A stretch of DNA of 64,000 nucleotides, taken from positions 186,001-250,000 of the forward strand of contig NZ_JAHLPP010000001.1 of NCBI RefSeq assembly GCF_018917965.1, written 5' to 3'. This DNA is from Pseudoflavonifractor sp. MSJ-37. GTDB taxonomy: Bacteria; Bacillota; Clostridia; Oscillospirales; Oscillospiraceae. The notes beneath the pieces are model-generated. The model searched no databases. It saw only the letters and a program-made list of their open reading frames with translations, and was not told the origin of the DNA. This document shows positions 16,945 to 53,400 of the stretch, piece after piece (within the stretch, counting starts at the first letter, position 1; each line of letters starts with the position of its first letter). The position numbers and the translations under genes were made by a program.

Positions 16945-17175
16945 ATGATTTTTGAGAAGATCGTTGCGCTGCTGTCTGAGCAGCTGGGCGTGGACCCGGA
17001 GAACATCACCATGGACACCTCCTTCGAGGAGCTGGGCGCCGACTCCGTGGACGTGGTGGACCTGACCATGGCGGTGGAGGAGTCCTTCGGCCTGGAGGAC
17101 CTGGCGGATGAGAACCTGTCCGGCATGACCACCGTGGGCGACTTCGTCCGCTTCCTGCAGACCAAGCTGGACTGA
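16945..17175 (+). CDS. acpP: Acyl carrier protein
   Basis: A 76-residue acidic protein that carries growing acyl chains on a phosphopantetheine arm. The attachment Ser lies in GADSVDVVDLTM (about residue 36). Family sequences usually read DSLD/E at this point; DSVD is a mild variant. It has its own promoter and a strong terminator-like hairpin directly after it. Confidence 0.96.
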   Translation: MIFEKIVALLSEQLGVDPENITMDTSFEELGADSVDVVDLTMAVEESFGLEDLADENLSGMTTVGDFVRFLQTKLD

Positions 17176-17190
17176 GACCGAACACGAACT

Positions 17191-17222
17191 GTCTGGAAAG
17201 CCCCGCTTCGGCGGGGCTTCCT
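17191..17222 (+). terminator. acpP terminator hairpin, left copy of a direct duplication
   Basis: AAGCCCCG, then CTTCGG, then CGGGGCTT form a very stable UUCG-type hairpin 16 bp after acpP. The T-run is weak (TTCCT). Apart from a 2-nt indel, the same sequence recurs at 17452-17481, with the structured element between the two. Confidence 0.7.
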
Positions 17223-17451
17223 CAGCGTGTCGAACCAGTTCGACACGCTTCTCAGAAATACAAGCATTTCTTCGATAGGATGCAGGCCGCCGCGCGCACT
17301 CGCTGTGCTCGCATGGTTGCAGCCTGAGAAGCGTTTTTTCTGAGGCACATGTCCTCAGAAAAAACGCCTTACATCTGATCCCGTCACCTGCGGGTGACGG
17401 AACTCTGCGAGGCTCATACATCGTTCGACGGAAGAAATGACTTTTTTGACA
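17223..17451 (+). repeat. Structured dispersed element, copy 1 (plus orientation)
   Basis: A non-coding block that fills most of the acpP-rnc gap. It holds, in order: a GTGTCGAAC/GTTCGACAC hairpin; an 11-bp outer stem ACGCTTCTCAG/CTGAGAAGCGT that encloses GAAAT/ATTTC and a GC-rich section; a 15-bp stem GCGTTTTTTCTGAGG/CCTCAGAAAAAACGC; a CCGTCACC/GGGTGACGG hairpin; and a final T-run (GACTTTTTT). A clearly homologous copy lies at 48766-49025 in reverse orientation. No open frame in it looks protein-like. It may be a structured RNA or a small non-autonomous mobile element. Confidence 0.8.
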
Positions 17452-17481
17452 GTCTGAAGCCCCGCTTCGGCGGGGCTTCCT
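17452..17481 (+). repeat. Right copy of the duplicated acpP terminator
   Basis: It repeats 17191-17222 with only a 2-nt deletion. It lies directly after the structured element and 30 bp before rnc. Because the matching element at 48766-49025 is flanked by a different terminator pair, this sequence belongs to the site and not to the element. Confidence 0.75.
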
Positions 17482-17511: not shown

Positions 17512-18189
17512 ATGCAGCACCTGGAAGAGATCCTGGGCTATACGTTTCGGGACCGTTCTCTGCTGGAGAACGCGCTGACCCACAGCTCCTACGCCAACGA
17601 GAACCGGTCCCGGGGCTGTCAGAGCAACGAGCGGCTGGAGTTCCTGGGGGACTCCGTGCTGGGCATGGTGACGGCCGATTTCCTGTACCGCACCCATCCC
17701 GACCTGCCCGAGGGCGACCTGACCCGCACCCGGGCGGCCCTGGTGTGCGAGGAGAGCCTGGTGGAGGTGGCTCGGACCTGGGGCCTGGGCGAATACCTGA
17801 AGCTGGGCAAGGGCGAGAACGCCGGCGGCGGCCGGAAGCGCCCCTCCATCCAGGCCGACGCGGTGGAGGCTGTGCTGGCGGCGGTCTATCTGGACGGAGG
17901 CATCGGCTCCGCCCGGAAGATCATCCAGACCTTCATCCTGGACAAAGAGGCGGAGAAGGCCCACAGCCGGGACTACAAGACCGCGCTCCAGGAGCTGGTC
18001 CAGCGGGAGAGCGGACAGGTGCTCCAGTACCGGCTCACCGGTTCCAGCGGACCGGACCACGCCAAGGTGTTCCTGGTGGAGGTGGATCTGAACGGGACCA
18101 CCGTGGGCCAGGGCGAGGGCCACAGCAAGAAAGAGGCGGAGCAGAACGCCGCCAGGGCCGCGATCCAGCACCTGACCGCCGGCAAGTGA
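17512..18189 (+). CDS. rnc: Ribonuclease III
   Basis: A 225-residue double-strand-specific endoribonuclease for rRNA precursor processing. The catalytic signature NERLEFLGDSVLG is at about 39-51, and the second metal-binding helix is DAVEAVLAAVYLDGG (about 117-131). The C-terminal dsRNA-binding domain (about 155-225) ends in KKEAEQNAARAAIQHL. The ATG at 17512 follows AAAGGAGG. The adjacent element at 17223-17451 would give long RNA stems of the kind RNase III cuts, though a functional link is only a guess. Confidence 0.97.
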   Translation: MQHLEEILGYTFRDRSLLENALTHSSYANENRSRGCQSNERLEFLGDSVLGMVTADFLYRTHPDLPEGDLTRTRAALVCEESLVEVARTWGLGEYLKLGKGENAGGGRKRPSIQADAVEAVLAAVYLDGGIGSARKIIQTFILDKEAEKAHSRDYKTALQELVQRESGQVLQYRLTGSSGPDHAKVFLVEVDLNGTTVGQGEGHSKKEAEQNAARAAIQHLTAGK

Positions 18190-48734: not shown

Positions 48735-48765
48735 AAAAAGGACCGTCCCCCAGCGGGGGACGGCC
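48735..48765 (-). repeat. Downstream copy of a duplicated terminator
   Basis: A 31-bp sequence identical to 49026-49056. On the minus strand it is a stem of GGACGG-type arms followed by TTTTT, so it can still terminate. Confidence 0.88.
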
Positions 48766-49025: not shown

Positions 49026-49056
49026 AAAAAGGACCGTCCCCCAGCGGGGGACGGCC
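49026..49056 (-). terminator. Terminator of the membrane-protein gene at 49073, upstream copy of the duplication
   Basis: On the minus strand, GGACGG-type arms form a GC-rich hairpin (CCGTCCCCC/GGGGGACGG) 17 bp after the stop codon, followed by TTTTT. The identical 31 bp recur beyond the structured element at 48735-48765. Confidence 0.9.
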
Positions 49057-53131: not shown

Positions 53132-53137
53132 AGGAGA

Positions 53138-53400
53138 AAAGCGATGATGGGAAGAAGACAGGGAACGTCTCATCCAGAGAGCCGGCGGCGGGTGCGAGCC
53201 GGTATGAGGGCCCCCTGTGGATACTGGTCCCGGAGTTGTCCGCCTGAATCGGAAGTAGGGCGTGCCGACTGGCCTCGTTACCGGCTGTGGCCTTGCTGGA
53301 GGCCGTGAGCGTCTGCCGGAGACGGCGGACGGAACCAGGGTGGTACCGCGTACATGACTGCTACGCCCCTGACCGATTATGGTCAGGGGCTTTTGTTTTT
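53138..53400 (+). promoter_or_regulatory. Leucine-specific T-box leader of leuA
   Basis: A riboswitch that reads uncharged tRNA-Leu. The T-box AGGGTGGTACCGCG is at 53337-53350; the base after TGG is T, which would pair with discriminator A73 of tRNA-Leu. Stem I is recognisable from ACAGGG (53157-53162) pairing with CCCTGT, and CTCAT with ATGAG. In the specifier loop, CTG at 53224-53226 followed by G fits a leucine codon. The terminator stem GCCCCTGACC/GGTCAGGGGC (53365-53390) with TTTTGTTTTT competes with the antiterminator. High uncharged tRNA-Leu should allow leuA transcription. Confidence 0.93.
53365..53400 (+). terminator. T-box-controlled terminator
   Basis: A 10-bp perfect stem with a GATTAT loop and a T-run of TTTTGTTTTT. 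Confidence 0.93.

Follow-up and report, generated by a model that had tools for sequence, protein, structure and literature searches.

Duplicated terminator hairpins around a MITE of probable IS1182-family origin in Pseudoflavonifractor and related gut bacteria

Results

A MITE between two copies of the acpP terminator

The acpP-rnc gap of Pseudoflavonifractor sp. MSJ-37 measures 339 bp and lies within the window, by which we mean the whole 64,000-nt stretch of DNA that was analysed. We take the two genes to be acpP and rnc, as did an earlier sequence-only reading. The gap holds a block enclosed by two copies of the acpP terminator hairpin, which are identical over 25 nt (AAGCCCCGCTTCGGCGGGGCTTCCT) and lie 259 bp apart from start to start (Table 1). 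Both ends of the block begin with CAG and carry a TGTC-RAA motif (CAGCGTGTCGAA and CAGACTGTCAAA), and a perfect palindrome with a 2-nt centre occupies 17224-17249 at the left end. Together with its hairpins (291 nt) the block has a predicted fold of -144.6 kcal/mol (z -9.8), which none of 200 shuffles equalled. The sequence-only reading had described a hairpin-rich block of 229 bp (17223-17451) between terminator copies that differ by a 2-nt indel. The block does fold and the terminator is duplicated, but the right boundary belongs at 17456, because GTCTG is the end of the element and not part of the repeat; CTG precedes the repeat in most sister copies too, and the GTCTG upstream of the left hairpin resembles this end by coincidence. 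With the boundary moved, the indel, which came from that upstream GTCTG, falls outside the duplication, and the duplication proper is exact.

The block is short, non-coding and multi-copy, has IS-like terminal inverted repeats, and is associated with a target-site duplication and empty sites, which makes it a MITE. No transposase ORF was found in its 234 bp, and the listed ORFs that run across it extend from or into the neighbouring genes; as it lacks an IS1182 transposase, it is a derivative and not an IS. The second copy in the window (L030) lies between duplicated hairpins of 31 nt, at about 48735-48765 and 49026-49056, and lacks the left terminal CA.

Table 1. Features of the acpP-rnc site and the second MITE copy in the window.
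Feature	Position	Strand	Basis
acpP (acyl carrier protein), upstream gene, owner of the target terminator	16945..17175	+	listed ORF; orthologue order in congeners
Left copy of duplicated acpP terminator hairpin (25-nt target-site duplication)	17198..17222	+	exact repeat; one hairpin in nine congeners
MITE, 234 bp, one of 30 genome copies	17223..17456	+	BLAST, flank reading, covariance model
Left terminal inverted repeat CAGCGTGTCGAA	17223..17234	+	9/12 positions match right repeat
Conserved structured core (covariance model R1)	17281..17412	+	G000:C1:203281-203412, 137.4 bits; covariation
Core helix P1	17283..17326 (17283-17290 with 17319-17326)	+	alignment, covariation
Core helix P2, conserved apical motif GGCACATGTCC	17331..17367	+	perfect arms; covariation
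Core helix P3	17381..17400 (17381-17388 with 17393-17400)	+	alignment, covariation
Conserved CTCTGCGAGG after P3	17403-17412	+	alignment
Right terminal inverted repeat, inward reading CAGACTGTCAAA	17445..17456	-	sequence comparison
Right copy of duplicated acpP terminator hairpin	17457..17481	+	exact repeat
rnc (RNase III), downstream gene	17512..18189	+	listed ORF; probe for empty sites
Second MITE copy in window, L030	48767..49025	-	BLAST, flank reading

Copies across the genome and their hairpin flanks

In the genome (2.58 Mb on 18 contigs), BLAST identified 30 MITE copies with 77-100% identity to the query, and a covariance-model search recovered 30 strong copies plus a weak one that overlaps the opposite strand of one copy. 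The copies are 234-261 bp long, non-coding, and found on both strands, and nearly all of them sit between two hairpins that differ from locus to locus. Flanks were tested in the 27 copies that have both ends; the other three (L021, L025, and L029) have no left end and carry a hairpin at their right side. The locus-specific hairpin is duplicated over 18-41 nt in 24 of the 27, with duplication scores of 17-41 (25 at acpP-rnc). Chance duplication is excluded, because 783 control pairs, in which the left flank of one copy was set against the right flank of another, reached a maximum score of 11. The length of the duplication follows the span of the hairpin (r=0.97 for the 24 copies), with a median offset of 0 nt at both feet, and the two cuts are therefore set by the fold. 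The duplication ends at the hairpin foot and leaves the downstream T-rich tract outside. Orientation relative to this tract was suggestive but not significant in the own genome (13 right, 5 left, 6 ties; p=0.10).

The sequence-only reading had asked whether every copy is flanked by a locus-specific repeat, and named copies without one as evidence against it. The expectation held for the 24 copies above and failed for three: L012 and L020, which have a hairpin at one side only, and L003 (G000:C1:51771-52006), a full-length MITE between closely spaced genes with a hairpin on neither side. Copies without a duplication thus do occur (3 of 27 here and 22 of 38 in five other genomes); most look decayed or rearranged, but L003 is a real exception.

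In those five genomes, 16 of 38 copies have duplicated hairpins (G143 6/18, G064 2/3, G091 4/10, G058 4/4, and G182 0/3), counted at a score of at least 14 and a fold of -7 kcal/mol or lower, thresholds that were chosen after looking at the data. These are 38 of 40 loci, and L269, where the repeat lies inside the element, was not scored as a hit. A separate sample with one or a few copies per genome, in which a search motif located the core in 35 of 48 loci (5 of them from the own genome), showed duplication in 3 of the 30 non-own loci; the two samples share some sites (for example, L203 and L267, or L209 and L278). The low share elsewhere suggests that many copies are old, rearranged, or differently placed. 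Orientation relative to the T-rich tract showed no significant bias in the other genomes (9 right, 6 left, 1 tie; p=0.61). Two orthologous core copies, L201 (G145) and L202 (G066), are associated with a 28-nt direct repeat that barely folds (-2.4 kcal/mol); their site is possibly the end of a coding region, and the insertion may be of another type or decayed.

Empty sites in relatives

An RNase III probe was used to recover the locus from ten genomes of the genus, including our own. All nine others have an acpP-rnc gap of 70-92 bp that holds one hairpin and no MITE, as the sequence-only reading had anticipated, and empty sites with two terminators were not seen among them. The second hairpin therefore arrived with the element. 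At the sigK and typA loci the terminator is single where it could be seen downstream; gene order differs there, and these were not counted as clean empty sites. A sporulation sigma-factor gene, which we presume to be sigK-like, is whole in the own genome and matches as two separate pieces in several congeners (L292-L298), where it looks as if an inserted element interrupts the gene.

IS1182-family relatives that carry a transposase

The own genome has no match to PF05598 and a single, broken match to PF13751, and no intact partner transposase was found in it. The sole transposase trace of this group found there is a degenerate IS1182-family remnant with stop codons (L069, near G000:C4 36431-36745), whose end CAGACTGTCAAAGG abuts a hairpin. 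Across a sample of 200 genomes from the bacterial family, 49 match PF13751, a model that covers more than this IS group, and no co-occurrence with the MITE core was detected (core in 27 of the 49 PF13751-positive genomes and 112 of 200 overall; Fisher p=1). A 1.85-kb region (G000:C1:50155-52006) with one MITE end was considered as an autonomous element and rejected, as its two related ORFs have no transposase features by eye.

Intact relatives were found among the PF13751-positive genomes of the family. L101 is an IS of 1,496 bp with perfect 31-nt hairpins at both sides, and L100 (the same element as L132) is an IS of 1,522 bp whose two hairpins are identical save for an inverted loop. The transposases of L100, L101, and L106 match the IS1182 family model NF033551 with 385.9, 385.1, and 376.6 bits (cut-off 270), which places the three in this family. 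A scan of named genomes yielded 80 IS loci, mostly in Oscillospiraceae and other Clostridia. By eye, 17 of these had a contig end too near to show both flanks and were excluded (L126, L130, L133, L134, L143, L149-L153, L156, L162, L188, L190, L191, L193, and L195), while L129, which has a 132-bp flank on one side, was retained. Duplicated hairpins of 19-64 nt flank 43 of the 63 testable copies, and their length again correlates with hairpin span (r=0.976, 43 ISs). ISs with intact hairpin repeats occur in two culturable hosts, Pseudoflavonifractor sp. An44 and Chakrabartyella piscis. The targets are terminator-like, with a mean of 4.1 T in the 8 positions after the right copy and 4.1 A in the 8 before the left copy. 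With reference to the T tract, ISs are not biased in their orientation (17 right, 18 left, 8 ties; p=1). The ends also connect the MITE to these ISs: the 18 nt at its right end (CAGACTGTCAAAAAAGTC) are identical to an end of the IS1182-family elements L172, L175, L176, L183, and L186, and its left end differs by one base from that of L105 (CAGCCTGTCGAA). At L096, near-identical 35-nt hairpins (1907-1941 and 2873-2907) lie 966 bp apart around another, non-IS1182 stretch.

Among 3,906 mismatched flank pairs of ISs, six reached the duplication score. Two of the six are matching hairpins of copies within one genome, Clostridiales bacterium CCNA10 (AP018533.1), where the left hairpin of L131 matches the right flank of L154 and that of L147 matches the right flank of L155, as expected after recombination. 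The matching hairpins now sit apart on the chromosome, and the copies look as if recombination had separated their two flanks; hairpin repeats thus tag ISs in a way that exposes recombination or rearrangement among them. At least nine of the 20 ISs without a matching pair have differing hairpins directly at both ends (L124, L158, L161, L170, L171, L178, L189, L196, and L198), which fits the same cause.

A conserved structured core

The interior of the MITE contains a core of 133 model positions with three covarying helices. Its structure was written by hand (P1 of 8 bp, P2 of 12 bp, and P3 of 9 bp) on an alignment of 26 cores (A3), comprising 3 of the 30 own copies and 23 of 29 loci from relatives; L032, L035, L042, L043, L047, and L048 were left out as incomplete or not anchored. 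Pairing holds in 93.9% of the cells of this alignment, double changes occur at 23 of 29 pairs, and covariation scores 0.342, compared with at most 0.141 for slid partners and a shuffle mean of 0.132. The linkers TGAGAAG, GGCACATGTCC, and CTCTGCGAGG are conserved. The core model matches 112 of the 200 family genomes, in 73 of 106 genera, and many of these genomes yielded 16 or more scored copies. A class-wide draw gave matches in 8 of 291 genomes, two from the family (the own genome and G066) and six weak. Copy numbers in both scans are lower bounds. No Rfam family matches the element: a permissive scan of seven MITE loci returned unrelated families below threshold only, and a scan of the window at gathering score gave a single hit, a T-box leader at 53135-53373 (+, 100.6 bits).

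Hairpins in these genomes have a further property. The two flanking copies at L023, L132, L138, and L279 differ by an inverted (reverse-complement) loop, and an alignment of 26 of the 27 two-ended own copies (A2, without L020) shows that internal hairpins of the MITE flip likewise (AACCAGTT/AACTGGTT, GGCAAAGCC/GGCTTTGCC, and TTTGTGAA/TTCACAAA). At L004 and L253 the hairpin arms change in concert. Loop flipping seems to affect hairpins in these genomes generally, perhaps through template switching, and does not look like a feature of insertion. Because hairpins flip and change jointly, paired base changes need not mean selection on RNA. The core may be an RNA, or a DNA structure of use in transposition, and any function that it has as RNA is putative.

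Discussion

We consider it very probable that the block is a MITE mobilised, now or formerly, by DDE transposases of the IS1182 family, and that its insertion duplicates the whole target hairpin. The sequence-only reading had proposed two routes by which the arriving element could have copied the terminator, and the results favour the first, a long target-site duplication, given one-terminator empty sites in 9 of 9 congeners and locus-specific duplications at 24 of 27 copies. The observed footprint consists of one-hairpin empty sites, locus-specific duplications, a length equal to that of the hairpin, and the same ends and duplication in transposase-bearing relatives; from it we infer the joining points and a cruciform or hairpin as the physical substrate. 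The transposase, presumably acting on the MITE in trans, would pick a target, usually an intrinsic terminator's stem-loop, by its hairpin shape. On each strand, one 3' end of the element would be joined to a 5' foot of this stem-loop, as for an extruded cruciform, leaving on both sides of the inserted element a single-stranded stretch that amounts to the whole hairpin. Gap repair would then copy both stretches and produce the arrangement hairpin-element-hairpin. The copy that keeps the T-rich tract likely still terminates transcription, insertion would do little harm, and the element would tend to join the 3' untranslated region of the upstream gene.

In the majority of DDE transposons, transposase geometry dictates a duplication that is short and constant in length. 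In the elements described here it is target shape that dictates the length, an indication that folded DNA is recognised. A transposase dimer that binds the arms of a linear palindrome and cuts outside them, with no cruciform or hairpin and with arm spacing as the source of the length, would leave the same genomic footprint as an extruded hairpin. We regard such a dimer as unlikely, since duplications of 18-64 nt with unrelated arm sequences are hard to reconcile with a fixed dimer, and IS1272, of the same family, is described as targeting secondary structure without sequence preference (PMC4923244).

The element might instead be first and foremost a regulatory RNA that the host family conserves, its mobility incidental or ancient. 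The occurrence of the core (112 of 200 genomes, 73 of 106 genera), its strong covariation, and the many copies elsewhere without visible duplication all speak for this reading, which we nevertheless judge quite improbable: the copy number (30 in the own genome and at least 16 in many others), the empty orthologous sites, and the transposon ends indicate spread by transposition, and template switching can yield paired hairpin changes without selection on RNA. A combination of the two ideas, in which the core is a functional structured RNA of 3' untranslated regions that spreads by hairpin-duplicating transposition, is one that we advance tentatively, as possible. If it were true, each insertion would leave the functional terminator beyond the element; the upstream transcript would run through the first hairpin, now without its T-rich tract, and gain the core as a new 3' module. 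In more than half of the family's genomes, scattered genes would in this way have come to share a single RNA element.

Two further explanations for the second hairpin are very hard to sustain. That tandem terminators predate the insertion, or that a separate, later duplication or gene conversion made the second hairpin, gains some credit from the concerted changes of hairpins in these genomes (flipped loops and shifts in both arms), but it is very unlikely, as acpP-rnc has one hairpin in each of the nine congeners and the coincidence would be needed independently at 24 unrelated loci with junctions at the same element ends. The second route of the sequence-only reading, retrotransposition or copying of the 3' end of the upstream transcript, agrees with a core that resembles structured RNA and with the many copies at gene ends, yet we give it almost no credence: the duplication halts at the hairpin foot, short of the T-rich tract, which would be part of a terminated transcript, insertions occur on both strands, ISs favour neither orientation (17 right, 18 left, 8 ties, relative to the T tract), no poly-T or spliced upstream transcript sequence was seen at the listed loci, and the short terminal inverted repeats, shared with DDE-transposase elements, suffice as an explanation.

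Hairpin-duplicating insertion, as read from these genomes, would be a new mode that explains the long and variable repeats of IS1182 elements, and the MITE family with its structured core is new; in the open-access literature we found no paper that describes this MITE or links IS1182 repeat length to hairpin length. It adds an abundant structured element outside Rfam to a major group of gut bacteria, and it shows how a transposon can insert into terminators and yet leave an intact hairpin to the gene that is hit.

Comparison with known systems

Bacterial MITEs such as BOX, RUP, and MITEAba12 are short, multi-copy, non-coding, and intergenic, with short terminal inverted repeats, and the element described here shares these general traits. 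What sets it apart is that it duplicates an entire terminator hairpin, whose length varies, and that it encloses a conserved structure of three covarying helices that recurs across genera. Group IIC introns also use terminators as an address, inserting beside them with no known target duplication; here the target is duplicated and ribozyme domains are absent, and the Rfam scan of the window found no group II intron. HUH elements of the IS200/IS605 or REP type are not known to have target duplications or terminal inverted repeats, and this identity was rejected, as the MITE has both.

The nearest comparison is within the IS1182 family, which is known to target palindromes or hairpins (Siguier 2015, as quoted in PMC4923244). 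ISfinder direct repeats for this family span 2 to 60 bp, a range for which the cited part of PMC7335449 gives no cause; it agrees with the 19-64 nt of the autonomous relatives found here, and hairpin length is offered as a testable cause for it. IS1272 and TnSha1 of staphylococci belong to the same transposase family as the relatives of our MITE, and their targets are likewise described as hairpins, many of them terminators, with no primary-sequence consensus (PMC4923244, PMC5678879). IS1272, however, removes all or part of the target hairpin without duplication, an outcome that has been attributed to joints at the 3' feet, with loss of the hairpin (PMC5678879). Replacement in this style was rejected for the elements described here, which keep the whole hairpin and duplicate it. 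A hypothetical branch of the IS1272 model (Fig 13 pathway b) draws just such a hairpin-duplicating outcome (PMC5678879), and our data, so far as genomic footprints can tell, fit that pathway. Two opposite outcomes, replacement by IS1272 and duplication by the elements in this study, would thus occur within one transposase family, and the choice between them is open to comparison.
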